Below are positions 6,753 to 54,700 of a stretch of DNA of 64,000 nucleotides, one piece after another. A program made the position numbers and the translations under genes. Each line of letters starts with the position of its first letter. The stretch's first letter is position 1. Below the pieces are notes generated by a model that was not told the origin of the DNA, ran no database searches, and saw nothing but the letters and a program-made list of their open reading frames with translations. The DNA comes from Lachnospiraceae bacterium (GTDB lineage Bacteria; Bacillota; Clostridia; Lachnospirales; Lachnospiraceae), in NCBI GenBank assembly GCA_016281555.1, contig JAEEIV010000067.1:1-64000 (forward strand), in the 5' to 3' direction.

Positions 6753-6821
6753 GACGAAAAAGGAGAAAACGCAGGCTGAGACCGGAGCATGCGAAGAAAT
6801 GATCCATCGGAGAGGAGACTC

Positions 6822-7460
6822 ATGAAGAACGAAGACCGTTTTGCAGAATATGAAAAGATCCTGAATTCGGGAGAACTCTATGATACCTTCGATCAGGGGA
6901 TGCTGGACTACCAGTGGGAGATGATGAAGCGGATCGACCTTTTCAATGCCCAGCCGAAGACGCCGGAAGGCGTGAAAGCACAGGACGAGATCCTCCGGGA
7001 AGCGCTCGGGACCTACAGCGAGGGCGTCATCGTGACCCCGCCCGTCTATGCGAACTGGGGACTCAGAAACGTGCACGTCGGGAAAAACACGTATTTCAAC
7101 TTCAATACGCTCTTCGTGGACGACGGGCGGATCGAGATCGGAGAACACTGCATGATCGGTCCGAACTGCACGTTCATCGGCGCGCAGCATCCGGTTTCTC
7201 CGGGGCTCCGCCGGAAGGGGCTCCAATACAATAAGCCCGTTCGCATCGGAAATAACGTCTGGTTCGGCGCGGGCGTCACCGTGCTTCCGGGCGTGACGAT
7301 CGGCGACAATACGGTCGTCGGCGCAGGCAGCGTCGTGACGCGGGATCTTCCGGCCAACGTCGTCGCGGTCGGGAATCCGGCAAGAGTGCTCCGGAAGATC
7401 ACCGACCGCGATGATGATTATTACGATCACGACAAACCGGTGCCGGATCGCTGGAAATAA
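6822..7460 (+). CDS. Maltose/galactoside-type sugar O-acetyltransferase
   Basis: Transfers acetyl from acetyl-CoA to a sugar hydroxyl; the natural substrate is not evident. It has an N-terminal maltose-acetyltransferase helical segment, then a left-handed beta helix built of hexapeptide repeats (VHVGKNTYFN, IEIGEHCMIG, VRIGNNVWFG, VTIGDNTVVG). The candidate catalytic His is in GAQHPVSP. The track start at 6789 has no ribosome site. The ATG at 6822 sits behind GGAGAGGAGA and gives 212 residues, near the family size. It is a single-gene transcript convergent with fbp. Confidence 0.9.
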   Translation: MKNEDRFAEYEKILNSGELYDTFDQGMLDYQWEMMKRIDLFNAQPKTPEGVKAQDEILREALGTYSEGVIVTPPVYANWGLRNVHVGKNTYFNFNTLFVDDGRIEIGEHCMIGPNCTFIGAQHPVSPGLRRKGLQYNKPVRIGNNVWFGAGVTVLPGVTIGDNTVVGAGSVVTRDLPANVVAVGNPARVLRKITDRDDDYYDHDKPVPDRWK

Positions 7461-7466
7461 GGAAAA

Positions 7467-9662
7467 TTACTGCTTCTCTTTGATGAGTCCCGACCGGTAG
7501 GCCGCGAGAAGATCGTAAAGGTCCGAAATCGAGGATTTTAACCGCGTGCCGATGTCGGTGTCGCCGACGGTGACGCGGTCCGTTAACCGCTCAATTAACG
7601 TCGTCTGGGAGTGGATGTCATTGCCGGTCCTGACGGCCTCCGCCTTCGAAGTGAACGGCTCGTGCGCGACAAGTTTTAAGCCGTGCGAGTTGTAAACGAG
7701 CGTGTAGCCTGCGATGCCGGTGGTATCCTGATAGGCCTTCGAAAAACCGCCGTCGATGACGAGCAGCTTGCCGCCGCATTTTAACGGCGATTCCCCGGAT
7801 TTCGATTTCACAGGCACGTGGCCGGAAACGATCCTCGCGTGTACGGGATCCAGCGAAAACTCCGCAAAGATCCGGTCGATCACGTCCTCACGGTCCCAAA
7901 GCTTGTAATACGGCGTCTTCCCTTCCTCGTGAACGGATTTGTCCTTGATGAACTGCCGTTCGAACGTGGCCATTTTCTGCTTGCCGAAGAGCGGAGAGGA
8001 GGGGCCGCACCAGAGATAGTAGTTCAGATCCAATGCATAAGCCTTCTCCGCGGGTTCGTCCGAGTAGTAGGATTTTCTTACGTTCTCATCCAGCGCGTCG
8101 AGCAGCGCCCTGCCTTTGTAACTCTTCCCGTCCACCGTGAATTCCTTGAAGGTACCGTCTTCGTTCAACGGGATCGAACCGTGATAGAGCAGATTTCCGT
8201 TGTAAATAAGATACATGCTGCCGCGGTTTAACAGGAAACGGACGTGGCGCTGCAGCTTTTCGCTCTGGCGGAAGGCCTCGACGAGTTTGTCCATGACCGC
8301 GGCTTCCTTTTCCGTCAGGCGGTACGGATCGGCCGGATCGACGGTCGGGAAGTCCGTATCCTCCATTTTGTAGCGCTTTCCGTCGACCAGGACCGTTCCG
8401 GTCTCATAATCCACCTTGTCAAGCAGAAGACGGTCGTCCATTCCGAATTCGGGGTGGCGTTTGATCCATTGTCCCTCCAGTTTGAACTGCAGCATCGTGA
8501 TGGCCTTGTGCATGCGGACGTCCTGCTCAAAATCGGCAATGTCATATTCGGGCAGATCCGCTTTCAGCCCGAACTGGCTCCGGTTCGAGTCGCTGTATTC
8601 CTCGACGGCCAGCTTCATGAGCGGGATCAGGTTGATGCCGTAGCCGTCCTCCAGAACTTCAAGGTTCGAATACCGGGCGCTGATCCGGACCGCGGTCGCG
8701 ATCGCGAGCGGACTTCCGGCGGCCGCCGACATCCAGACGATGTCGTGGTTTCCCCACTGAATGTCGAGAGAGTGGTGCTCCATCAGCGTATCGAGCACGA
8801 TGTGCGGACCGGGGCCACGGTCGAAGACGTCGCCGATGATGTGCAGATGGTCCACGATGAGCCGCTGGATCATGTGCGAAAATGCGGAAATGCATTCCTT
8901 GGCGCGGCTCGTTTTGATGATCGCCTCGATGATGCTGTCGTAATAGGCGGACTTGTTCGAAAGGTCATTGTCGCTCATCAGCTCCTCAATGACGTACCGG
9001 AAGTCCTCCGGAATCGCCTTCCGGACCTTGGAACGCGTGTATTTCAAGGAAACGCGCCGGGCAATGCGGATGAGGCGGAGCAGGATCACGCGGTACCATT
9101 CGATCATGTCGCGGCCGGATTCCTCCTCTAAGAGCATTTTTTCGACGGGATAGTAGATCAGCGTCGCGAGATCCTTCTTGTCTTCTTTTGAAATTTCAAA
9201 ACCGAATTCCTCGTTGATCTTCGATCGGACGTTTCCGGAAGCGTTTGCGAGGATGTGGATGAACTGCTCGTATTCGCCGTGAATGTCGCTTAAGAAGTGC
9301 TCGGTGCCCTTCGGAAGATTCAGGATCGAATAGAGGTTGATGATCTCGGTAGAGGCCTTCGCGATCGTGGGGAAGCGGAAGGAGAGTTCTTCGAGATAGC
9401 GGAGCTTCGCTGCGGGGATCCGGTCGCCTTTCATGGCGGAACCCGCGCCGCTTCCCGATTTCAATTCGCCGGAGAGCAGAGCGTCCGTCGACAGGTCCAA
9501 TGCCCGGCAGAGCTTCTGAACGTTGTTTGCGTTCGAATTCATCACGCCGCGGCGCAGGATCGCGTCCACTGTGGAATAAGGAATGTCGGTCGTGCTGACG
9601 AATTCCCGGATGCTTTTGTACCGGGACAGGATGAGAGCCTTCAGCCGTTCTTCGATCGTCAT
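7467..9662 (-). CDS. fbp: Class III fructose-1,6-bisphosphatase with N-terminal XRE-type HTH domain
   Basis: Hydrolyses fructose 1,6-bisphosphate in gluconeogenesis. The catalytic part (from about residue 85) is the Firmicutes class III enzyme: calcineurin-type metal motifs SDIHGEYEQF, GDVFDRGPGPH and GNHDIVWM, and the typical FPTIAKASTEIINL lead-in. Unusually, residues 1-70 (from MTIEERLKALILSRYKSIRE) form a Cro/C1-like helix-turn-helix joined by a Gly/Ser linker (SGSGAGSA). The protein is 731 residues against about 640-670 for the usual enzyme. I chose the ATG at 9662, which has AAGGGGGA 7 bases upstream; the TTG at 9683 lies upstream of that site. There is no ribosome site before the internal Met at the linker, so a separate FBPase start is unlikely. 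Confidence 0.93.
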   Translation of the reverse strand: MTIEERLKALILSRYKSIREFVSTTDIPYSTVDAILRRGVMNSNANNVQKLCRALDLSTDALLSGELKSGSGAGSAMKGDRIPAAKLRYLEELSFRFPTIAKASTEIINLYSILNLPKGTEHFLSDIHGEYEQFIHILANASGNVRSKINEEFGFEISKEDKKDLATLIYYPVEKMLLEEESGRDMIEWYRVILLRLIRIARRVSLKYTRSKVRKAIPEDFRYVIEELMSDNDLSNKSAYYDSIIEAIIKTSRAKECISAFSHMIQRLIVDHLHIIGDVFDRGPGPHIVLDTLMEHHSLDIQWGNHDIVWMSAAAGSPLAIATAVRISARYSNLEVLEDGYGINLIPLMKLAVEEYSDSNRSQFGLKADLPEYDIADFEQDVRMHKAITMLQFKLEGQWIKRHPEFGMDDRLLLDKVDYETGTVLVDGKRYKMEDTDFPTVDPADPYRLTEKEAAVMDKLVEAFRQSEKLQRHVRFLLNRGSMYLIYNGNLLYHGSIPLNEDGTFKEFTVDGKSYKGRALLDALDENVRKSYYSDEPAEKAYALDLNYYLWCGPSSPLFGKQKMATFERQFIKDKSVHEEGKTPYYKLWDREDVIDRIFAEFSLDPVHARIVSGHVPVKSKSGESPLKCGGKLLVIDGGFSKAYQDTTGIAGYTLVYNSHGLKLVAHEPFTSKAEAVRTGNDIHSQTTLIERLTDRVTVGDTDIGTRLKSSISDLYDLLAAYRSGLIKEKQ

Positions 9663-9723
9663 GGTCAATCCCCCTTGGATCAATGTGCCTCTGTTTCAAA
9701 AATGAAGGAACAGAGATGGTTTT

Positions 9724-9752
9724 ATTATAGCGGGAGTTTTCCGAAAATGCAA
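9724..9752 (-). promoter_or_regulatory. Promoter for the HTH-fbp gene
   Basis: On the minus strand TTGCAT (9747-9752), 17 bases, TATAAT (9724-9729). The leader to the ATG is about 55 bases and contains AAGGGGGA. Confidence 0.75.
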
Positions 9753-9780
9753 TAACGAATTTTGAAAAATCGTAAACAAG

Positions 9781-9818
9781 CCGCCGCGATATTTTTGAAT
9801 AATCAAAAACCTAGGCGG
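9781..9818. repeat. AT-rich hairpin in the fbp/YtxH divergent intergenic region
   Basis: Perfect inverted repeat TTTTTGA-ATAA-TCAAAAA (9792-9809) inside an outer pair CCGCC (9781-9785) / GGCGG (9814-9818). It lies upstream of both the fbp promoter and the YtxH-like gene promoter, in the 361-base gene-free stretch 9663-10023. It could be a regulator binding site, possibly for the fused HTH domain; this is inference. Confidence 0.5.
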
Positions 9819-9899
9819 AAAAAACGAAAAATGCGAAATCAGGAGCGGAACGGATCAGAGCGGGAATCTGTGAAATAACGGTGAATTCTCGGAAAAGTC

Positions 9900-9928
9900 T
9901 TTATTTTTCGCGCAAAATATGGTATACT
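9900..9928 (+). promoter_or_regulatory. Extended -10 promoter for the YtxH-like gene
   Basis: TGG-TATACT (-10 at 9923-9928) with an extended TGn; the -35 region TTTATT is weak. It is followed by a leader of roughly 90 bases. Confidence 0.6.
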
Positions 9929-10023
9929 CCCCTTGTCCGGAAGGGGAGACCGTATTCCGGACGGAACGATCGATGCATTACGGAGAGCGGGCGGAACGTT
10001 CTGCCCGGAGAAAGGAGAAGAAA

Positions 10024-10677
10024 ATGGGAAAATTCACTACGACTAAATTCTTACTCGGCACGGCTGTTTTGGGACTCGTTTCCGCAGCGGCATATACTTT
10101 TGTGAAGAAGTATCAGGAATACGCACCGAAGGAGCTTCCTGAAAAAGGACCGGACGGAGAAGAGATCCAGCCGGCGACCATTAAGATCGACATGGATGCC
10201 GCGAAGAAGGCAGCCGGCGAGACGGCGACCGTGCTTTCCGAGCAGGCGAAGAAGTTTGCCCATGCGGCTTCCGATTCCGCGAAGGCGGTCGGCGGCGTGA
10301 TCCGTGAGAATTACGGCCCCGAGATCGAATCCGCGAAAAGAAACGCGGCGGAAAAGTACGCGGAAGTGAAGGAGTACGCGGCGGGCAAGTTCGCGACGGC
10401 GAAGGAATACGCGGGCGAGAAATGGGAGCAGGCGAAGGAATACGCCGGCGAGAAATGGGAACAGGCGAAGGAGTTCGTCCAGAATAAGGTCCAGGAATTC
10501 AAGGATCGCGCGGAAGAAGAGGATCCGAACGAGACCGCGGAAACCGCCGGTGTGGATGAACTGTTCGACGAAGTGAAGGAGAAAGCGGAAGAGGCGCTGA
10601 ACGATGCGGAAGAAGCCGTTCAGGAAACCGCCGAGAACGCGGAAAAGAAGACGGAAGACTTCATCCAGAATCTTTGA
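10024..10677 (+). CDS. YtxH-like amphipathic repeat protein
   Basis: Function unknown. The start is the ATG at 10024 behind AAGGAGAAGAAA; the longer track ORF begins inside the leader. The 217-residue product has one N-terminal membrane segment (FLLGTAVLGLVSAAAYTFV), then an Ala/Glu/Lys-rich helical body with 11-residue repeats of the type EYAGEKWEQAK and a very acidic tail. The composition and repeat length resemble YtxH-domain and apolipoprotein/LEA-like stress proteins that lie along membranes. It stands alone between its own promoter and a strong terminator. Confidence 0.65.
   Translation: MGKFTTTKFLLGTAVLGLVSAAAYTFVKKYQEYAPKELPEKGPDGEEIQPATIKIDMDAAKKAAGETATVLSEQAKKFAHAASDSAKAVGGVIRENYGPEIESAKRNAAEKYAEVKEYAAGKFATAKEYAGEKWEQAKEYAGEKWEQAKEFVQNKVQEFKDRAEEEDPNETAETAGVDELFDEVKEKAEEALNDAEEAVQETAENAEKKTEDFIQNL
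10372..10470 (+). repeat. 33-base tandem repeats encoding 11-residue helical units
   Basis: Two nearly identical 33-base units (10405-10437 and 10438-10470, differing at two bases) encode EYAGEKWEQAK twice. A diverged unit (EYAAGKFATAK) precedes them. The 11-residue period fits a long amphipathic helix. Confidence 0.85.
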
Positions 10678-52657: not shown

Positions 52658-54700
52658 ATGGGAAAGAGTTTTTCAGACAGGATCAAAAGGATCTCTTACG
52701 GCGGAGACTATAATCCGGAACAGTGGCCGAAGGAGGTCTGGGCCGAAGACATGAAGCTCTTCAGGGAGGCCGGCATCGACACCGTGACGCTGAACGTCTT
52801 TTCCTGGGCGGCGCTGCAGAAGGCGGATTACGAATACGATTTTTCCAAACTGGATGAGATCATGGAGTACGTCCGGGAGAACGGGCTGAAGGTCATCCTT
52901 GCGACGTCCACGGCCGCGCATCCTGCGTGGATGGCGAGCGCTCATCCGGACATTCTCCGGGTGAATTACTACGGACAGAAGCGCAAATTCGGCGCGCGGC
53001 ACAATTCCTGCCCGAATTCCCCGACGTTTTTGAAATTCGCGCCGCGGCTCGCCGGAAAACTCGCTGAACGGTATGCGAAGTACGAGAATCTCATTGCCTG
53101 GCACATCTCGAACGAATACAACTCGGTCTGCTACTGCAAGAACTGCGAAGCGGCATTTCGGGACTGGCTGAAGGAAAAATACGGCACGATCGAGGAAGTG
53201 AACCGTGCCTGGTGCACGTCCTTCTGGAGCCATACGTTCTATGATTTCGACGAGATCGTGGTGCCGAACAAGCTGACGGAGGAGACTTCCCGGTTCGAGA
53301 CCTGTTTCCAGGGCATTTCGCTCGATTACCGGCGGTTTTTGAGTGATTCCATGCTGCACGAGTGCGCATTGGAAGCGGCGGAGATCAAGAAGTACACGCC
53401 AGACGTTCCGGTCACGACGAATTTCATGCATTTCTTCAAGGATCTGGATTACAGGAAATGGGCGGACGTTCTGGATTTCACGAGCTGGGACAGCTATCCC
53501 TTCTTCGACGAGGACAGGGCGGACGTGTCGATGTGGCACGACTACATGCGTTCCTTAAAGGGCGGTCAGCCGATGCTCCTCATGGAACAGACGCCGAACG
53601 TCACGAACTGGCAGAAGTACAATTTCATCCGGAGACCGGGCGTGGTCCGGCTCTGGTCCTGGCGGTCGGTCGCGCACGGCGCGGACGGCGTGCTCTTTTT
53701 CCAGCTCCGCAGATCGCAGGGCGCGATGGAAAAAATGCACGGCGCGGTCATTGACCACGTGGGCCTCGGAACGACGCGTTCCTTCAAGGAGCTGGCCGTG
53801 ACGGGACGCGAGTTCGAAGCGCTCGGCGACACTCTGCTCGGCGCCCGGACGGACGCTTCCGCGGCGATCATCTTTGACTACGACAACATGTGGGCTTCCG
53901 AGTACTGCTGCGGTCCGAGCCGCGATCCGGAGTACAAGAGCTACCGCAATGAAGTCATGCGGTTTTATAAGGCATTGAACGCATTGAACATTTCCACCGA
54001 AGTGATCGCGGAGGAAGATGATTTCGACAAGTACCGTCTCCTCATTGCCCCGATCATGTACATGGTGAAGCCGGGCGTACGGGAAAGGATCGAACGGTTC
54101 GTGGAAAACGGCGGCACGTTCGTGGCTTCGGCGTTCTCCGGCATCGTCAACGAGACTGATCTCGTTTATCTCGGCGGGTATCCGGGTCCGTTGAAGAAGG
54201 TGCTCGGCATCTGGGTGGAAGAGATCGATTGCCTGCCGCCGGAAGAGAAGAACAGTTTCGTGTACGGCGGAAAGCGGTACGAGGCGAAACAGTATTTCGA
54301 CATTATTTCTTCGCTCGATCCGACCTGCCGGCCGCTCGCGGCGTATGAACATGATTTTTACGCCGGCAAACCTGCGGTCACGAAGAACGACTTCGGCAAG
54401 GGATTTGCTTACTACGTGGCGACGCGCTCTTCGGACGACTTCTATTTCGACTTCCTTTCTTACATCGCGAAGGAAGCCGGCGTCCGTCCGGTGTATGAAG
54501 CCGTGCCCGGATTGGAGGTCACCGAACGTCACAACGAAAACGGCCGGTTTACGTTCTTCTTAAATCACAACGACGATTCTCTCGAGATCACGCTTCCGGC
54601 GGCGGGAAGGGCCCTTTTAAGCGGTGAGAACGCGGCAAAAGGCGACAAGGTCGTTCTGGAGCCGAAGGGCGTGTTCATCCTTCAGGAAAGCGCGAAGTGA
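52658..54700 (+). CDS. Beta-galactosidase, glycoside hydrolase family 42
   Basis: Intracellular beta-galactosidase with no signal peptide. The TIM barrel (1-390) carries the acid/base Glu in WHISNEYN (about 152) and the nucleophile Glu in LMEQTPN (about 309). A Cys cluster (CYCKNC with an upstream Cys) forms the GH42 zinc site. The trimerisation domain and small beta domain follow. 680 residues. GGGAGG precedes the ATG. It likely cuts short galacto-oligosaccharides from diet or host glycans. Confidence 0.93.
   Translation: MGKSFSDRIKRISYGGDYNPEQWPKEVWAEDMKLFREAGIDTVTLNVFSWAALQKADYEYDFSKLDEIMEYVRENGLKVILATSTAAHPAWMASAHPDILRVNYYGQKRKFGARHNSCPNSPTFLKFAPRLAGKLAERYAKYENLIAWHISNEYNSVCYCKNCEAAFRDWLKEKYGTIEEVNRAWCTSFWSHTFYDFDEIVVPNKLTEETSRFETCFQGISLDYRRFLSDSMLHECALEAAEIKKYTPDVPVTTNFMHFFKDLDYRKWADVLDFTSWDSYPFFDEDRADVSMWHDYMRSLKGGQPMLLMEQTPNVTNWQKYNFIRRPGVVRLWSWRSVAHGADGVLFFQLRRSQGAMEKMHGAVIDHVGLGTTRSFKELAVTGREFEALGDTLLGARTDASAAIIFDYDNMWASEYCCGPSRDPEYKSYRNEVMRFYKALNALNISTEVIAEEDDFDKYRLLIAPIMYMVKPGVRERIERFVENGGTFVASAFSGIVNETDLVYLGGYPGPLKKVLGIWVEEIDCLPPEEKNSFVYGGKRYEAKQYFDIISSLDPTCRPLAAYEHDFYAGKPAVTKNDFGKGFAYYVATRSSDDFYFDFLSYIAKEAGVRPVYEAVPGLEVTERHNENGRFTFFLNHNDDSLEITLPAAGRALLSGENAAKGDKVVLEPKGVFILQESAK

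Follow-up and report, generated by a model that had tools for sequence, protein, structure and literature searches.

Metabolic enzymes that carry their own DNA-binding domain and can control their own gene are known as trigger enzymes or enzyme-regulator fusions, with PutA, BirA, and NadR as examples. A gene in the window (the whole 64,000-nucleotide stretch of DNA analyzed here, from a metagenome-assembled genome, or MAG, of a Lachnospiraceae bacterium) resembles these systems in combining a catalytic and a DNA-binding domain within a single chain, as judged from one reading frame and both folds, with the frame at the junction coming from one MAG. It differs from them in that the DNA-binding domain is of the phage-repressor type, the enzyme is a fructose-1,6-bisphosphatase (FBPase), coupling to an effector is hypothetical, and the arrangement is found in one genome. 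For the enzyme, the closest described system is the class III (Firmicute) FBPase of the Bacillus subtilis Fbp type. The full-length domain, metal motifs, and fold are alike in the fusion, but the unfused relatives have neither the N-terminal helix-turn-helix (HTH) domain nor the linker. For the DNA-binding domain, the closest systems are the CI-like repressors of Streptococcus phage SMP and Clostridioides phage AR1074-1 and the standalone repressor L167, which resemble the fusion in their DNA-binding domain, in the type of operator, and in how the promoter is arranged.

Our preferred reading, which we hold to be moderately probable, is that an acquired FBPase gene was captured by the promoter and DNA-binding domain of a phage cI gene, giving rise to a bifunctional and probably autoregulated enzyme. 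Among enzyme-regulator fusions, this one is new in that its DNA-binding domain is of phage type and comes with an operator prediction open to testing; it has been observed in only one MAG. The features of the locus are listed in Table 1.

Table 1. Features of the fusion locus, in window coordinates
Feature	Position	Strand	Remarks
Hexapeptide-repeat acetyltransferase gene	6789-7460	+	Converges on the FBPase gene; stops 6 bp apart
Fusion gene	7467-9662	-	731 aa; HTH, linker, and class III FBPase; stop codon 7467-7469
FBPase_2 domain	7494-9401	-	Residues 88-723; catalytic motifs intact
Tentative intragenic operator	9186-9201 (profile 9187-9200)		Perfect 16-bp palindrome TTTTGAAATTTCAAAA; profile rank 3 of 64,000
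Flexible Gly/Ser/Ala linker	9426-9458	-	Residues 69-79; contains M77 (9434)
HTH domain	9462-9662	-	Residues 1-67; CI-like phage repressor type
Promoter TTGCAT-17-TATAAT of the fusion gene	9724-9752	-	Read from the sequence; similarity to the L167 cI promoter region
Weak operator-like site across the -35 box	9740-9753		6.2 bits; in register with the L167 site
Predicted operator O1	9761-9774		TACGATTTTTCAAA on the - strand; profile rank 1 of 64,000 window positions
Predicted operator O2	9792-9809 (core 9794-9807)		Hairpin TTTTTGATTATTCAAAAA; profile rank 4 of 64,000

Domain Organization and Integrity of the Fusion Gene

The original prediction described one uninterrupted frame that encodes a Cro/C1-like HTH, a Gly/Ser linker, and a complete class III FBPase with all metal motifs, and each of these elements was recovered by open reading frame analysis, Pfam, and AlphaFold2. 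All 731 codons lie in a single open frame. The Pfam match to FBPase_2 spans profile positions 1–638 of 639 (2.7e-288, 958 bits), which corresponds to a full-length class III domain, and the HTH has a weak match to HTH_26 (residues 7–58, E = 0.009) that lies under the family cut-off. The metal motifs SDIHGE, GDVFDRGP, and GNHD (calcineurin type; D-x-H, GDxxDR, and GNHD) are present in the fusion and conserved in 38 relatives, and the FBPase part retains 173 of 178 near-invariant columns. Judged by its sequence, the fusion product is most likely active as an FBPase.

The AlphaFold2 model, built from a 40-row alignment, has a mean pLDDT of 90.5. The HTH consists of five helices (residues 3–14, 18–24, 29–38, 45–54, and 59–64; pLDDT mostly 84–90), and the HTH by itself also folds in the best model of five built from its single sequence. 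The linker, which reads KSGSGAGSAM within the junction peptide SGELKSGSGAGSAMKGD, is disordered in the model (pLDDT < 50), and the FBPase part is confident. Sequence searches yielded no solved structure for the full protein; a fold search with the whole model (Foldseek) gave PDB 9a7j_A, annotated as an F16PC-GLPD integrative model, as the best match (E 1.6e-65). Foldseek also reported weak matches to the HTH domains of SinR, DdrO, P22 c2, and prophage Lp1.

Class III FBPases had been expected to start near the segment FPTIAKAST. Unfused relatives begin between a few and about 20 residues ahead of it, such that M77 in the linker is the likely ancestral FBPase start. This position also fits an arrangement of two genes, a small repressor gene and an FBPase gene starting at M77, that overlap by ATGA and were joined by a one-base error or a recent frameshift in the 28 bp between them. 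The +1 frame does terminate at a TGA that overlaps the ATG of M77, and the fusion frame at the linker rests on one MAG in 89 contigs. However, the assembled frame reads SGSGAGSA at this point, and seven-residue Gly/Ser/Ala runs occur in only 7 of 14,305 and 2 of 15,749 out-of-frame stretches. Codon statistics across the linker likewise favor the assembled frame, the Shine-Dalgarno sequence is strong at M1 and weak at M77, and standalone repressor relatives usually extend about 45 residues farther past the HTH. We consider such an artifact or frameshift quite unlikely, and the fusion would then be expressed as a single chain.

Phage-Repressor Kinship of the DNA-Binding Domain

The relatives of the HTH identify it as the DNA-binding head of phage CI-like repressors; this assignment, together with that of the promoter, is an addition to what had been predicted earlier. 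Among 299 genomes of the family, the closest relative is L167, a standalone repressor of 111 amino acids (59% identity) whose gene adjoins an ImmA/IrrE-like gene and a divergent cro-like gene. The best phage matches are from Clostridioides phage AR1074-1 (56%) and Streptococcus phage SMP (52%), the latter with a UmuD/S24-like C-terminus, and many further phage relatives are annotated as CI-like repressors. Matches in PHROGs are phrog_8 (2e-6) and phrog_4 (2.4e-5). Ten residues are invariant or nearly invariant in this HTH family, and the fusion retains all ten.

CI-like repressors keep their own C-terminal region (S24-type in SMP), whereas in the fusion this oligomerization/S24 peptidase region is absent and the FBPase stands in its place. 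Thus, the fusion is not a CI repressor and has only the DNA-binding head of one. CI of phage TP901-1 is reported to dimerize through its C-terminal part (PMC4941734). The fusion site has no divergent cro-like gene either; the gene that diverges there, at 10024, is native and common to the genus.

The codons of the HTH are host-like (GC3 of 0.78, compared with 0.16–0.47 in the repressor genes of its relatives), indicating that the HTH was retained while its codons adapted to the host. Unless the donor itself was GC-rich, this also speaks against the join being recent or the assembly being chimeric.

The phage repressors to which the HTH belongs have the operator TACGAWWWWTCGTA in common, and the genome contains no second HTH of the same kind (the sole other match has E = 0.18). 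Both observations are compatible with a domesticated immunity protein, in which the HTH would mainly act on incoming phages that use the same switch, by binding their operators, and the FBPase would serve as a dimerization domain. However, the analysis identified no phage that infects this host and carries such operators, and the FBPase catalytic residues, which a mere dimerization domain would not need, are conserved. We regard this explanation as very improbable.

Distribution and Evolutionary Origin

Searches for further proteins that combine an HTH with a class III FBPase, as called for by the original prediction, bore out the fusion at the sequence level and yielded no second example. None was found in 15 genomes of the genus, 299 of the family, 392 of the order, 391 of the class, or 399 of the phylum (these draws overlap and comprise about 1,390 different genomes in total), among the 80 best-ranked loci from a GTDB scan, or in the plasmids and viral contigs searched. 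Some FBPase relatives have long open frames, and inspection of these revealed no HTH. A literature search found no publications on an HTH-FBPase fusion.

In the FBPase phylogeny, the fusion protein is sister to L031, the closest FBPase, which is unfused (support 100/99). The 14 further genus genomes lack a class III FBPase, and searches for class I or II enzymes across all 15 were negative; the fusion may be the only FBPase of this organism, and the genus may use another route.

The flanking genes are common to the genus, which indicates that the contig belongs to it. Among the relatives inspected, eight of 10 have an MscL-like gene followed closely by a homolog of the gene at 10024, forming a short site that is free of FBPase. 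The block containing the acetyltransferase and HTH-FBPase genes is therefore extra in this genome, either by gain here or by loss in the others. Both genes fall within the block that the genus relatives lack, and an acetyltransferase gene adjoining FBPase was not found in relatives.

Promoter and Predicted Operators

A palindromic operator profile of 14 bp was learned by expectation maximization from the intergenic regions upstream of ten repressor genes of this CI-like type, with the window left out. Its consensus is TACGAWWWWTCGTA, and each switch typically has two or three good sites. This profile predicts operators of the family at the promoter of the fusion gene itself, namely O1, which is its top match, and O2. 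O1 lies 8 bp upstream of the -35 box and is centered near -50 from the expected start, a position that fits activation or repression; the center of O2 is 33 bp from that of O1. A hairpin had been noted at O2 before, and it is a real inverted repeat (TTTTTGA-TTAT-TCAAAAA) as well as the second predicted operator. The second-best profile match in the window (52835-52848) is located within an open reading frame (52658-54700) that resembles a glycoside hydrolase gene.

In dinucleotide shuffles of the upstream region (9663-10023), the top score was reached in 0.64% and the top two scores jointly in 0.12%; these values are modest because the promoter is AT-rich. The top score was reached in none of 104 regions upstream of unfused FBPase genes. 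A 60-bp ungapped alignment between the fusion promoter and the L167 cI promoter region has 41 identical positions, compared with a maximum of 37 in 1,000 shuffles. O1 scores 14.5 bits and the aligned L167 site 12.0 bits. In both promoters, a second site follows 21 bp downstream of the O1-type site, with 6.2 bits in the window versus 9.7 bits in L167. The promoter similarity and this shared spacing suggest that the promoter, operators, ribosome-binding site, and DNA-binding domain may have been captured together. A generic promoter scan did not list TTGCAT-17-TATAAT, because its thresholds call for 9 of 12 under other rules. The CI operators of TP901-1 and phi13 (AGTTCAYR; PMC8516035) are of another type than those of the fusion.

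The intragenic palindrome is suggestive only as an operator. Its half-sites are common to O2, and it lies within a run of seven A/T-ending codons, of a length that is not rare in the window. Shuffles of synonymous codons attained its score in 7.8% of cases, and L031 has no counterpart at the same place.

Proposed Regulatory Role of the Fusion Protein

Under the preferred reading, the class III FBPase gene sits in the extra block beside the acetyltransferase gene, and its 5' end would have been fused in frame with the front portion of a repressor gene of the phage cI type. The captured front would include the promoter with its operators, the ribosome-binding site, and the DNA-binding domain, with the C-terminal part of the repressor left behind. 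The N-terminal HTH, on its flexible Gly/Ser linker, would bind ACGA-N4-TCGT and TTGA-N4-TCAA palindromes at its own promoter (O1, O2, and perhaps the intragenic site), and the FBPase part, if oligomeric, would replace the dimerization lost with the repressor C-terminus. The outcome would be an autoregulated FBPase. If true, a component of a phage switch, with its promoter and operators, has been recruited naturally into central carbon metabolism, and the fusion represents a minimal path for turning a metabolic enzyme into its own transcriptional regulator. The operator prediction renders this claim experimentally testable. The occurrence in one genome only and the weakened site at the -35 box count against it.

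The original prediction proposed that the fusion protein regulates genes directly, in particular from its own promoter region. The part concerning its own promoter is favored by the independent profile, which ranks O1 first and the hairpin fourth in the window; the extension to a larger regulon is not. Exact matches to the looser pattern WYGAWWWWTCRW number 33 across the genome (2.26 Mb), and three fall within 620 bp at the fusion locus, although both this pattern and TTTTGANNNNTCAAAA were framed after the window had been seen and are descriptive, leaving the profile as the independent test. At nearly all of the 14 other genomic loci examined, the pattern site is inside an open reading frame. 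A wider regulon is thus not indicated, and the evidence favors autoregulation instead. The predicted sites give good reason to expect operator binding by the fusion enzyme at its own promoter, and on this sequence-based evidence the enzyme probably regulates its own gene.

Alternatively, the FBPase gene may have done no more than take over its promoter and start region from a phage, such that the product is an ordinary class III FBPase with the HTH as a passenger and the operators as functionless relics. The promoter, operators, and HTH do appear to have been taken together, the fusion is confined to a single lineage with no regulon seen, and the operators could be mere leftovers from the capture of the promoter. 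However, the conserved residues of the HTH family have been kept despite host-adapted codons, which suggests selection on the protein, and O1 still scores above the aligned L167 site. Such a neutral capture appears unlikely to us, and autoregulation remains our preferred reading.

A role as a flux sensor is a natural hypothesis from the domain architecture alone. The metabolite-bound state of the FBPase might alter operator binding. In that case, the enzyme would sense fructose 1,6-bisphosphate (or AMP/PEP) and directly control the transcription of its own gene, perhaps through a DNA loop that reaches the intragenic site. This extension is speculative and we rate it as doubtful. Elsewhere in the same genome, L228 (G000:C3:6396-6437) has two operator-like sites 30 bp apart within a lipoprotein-like open reading frame.
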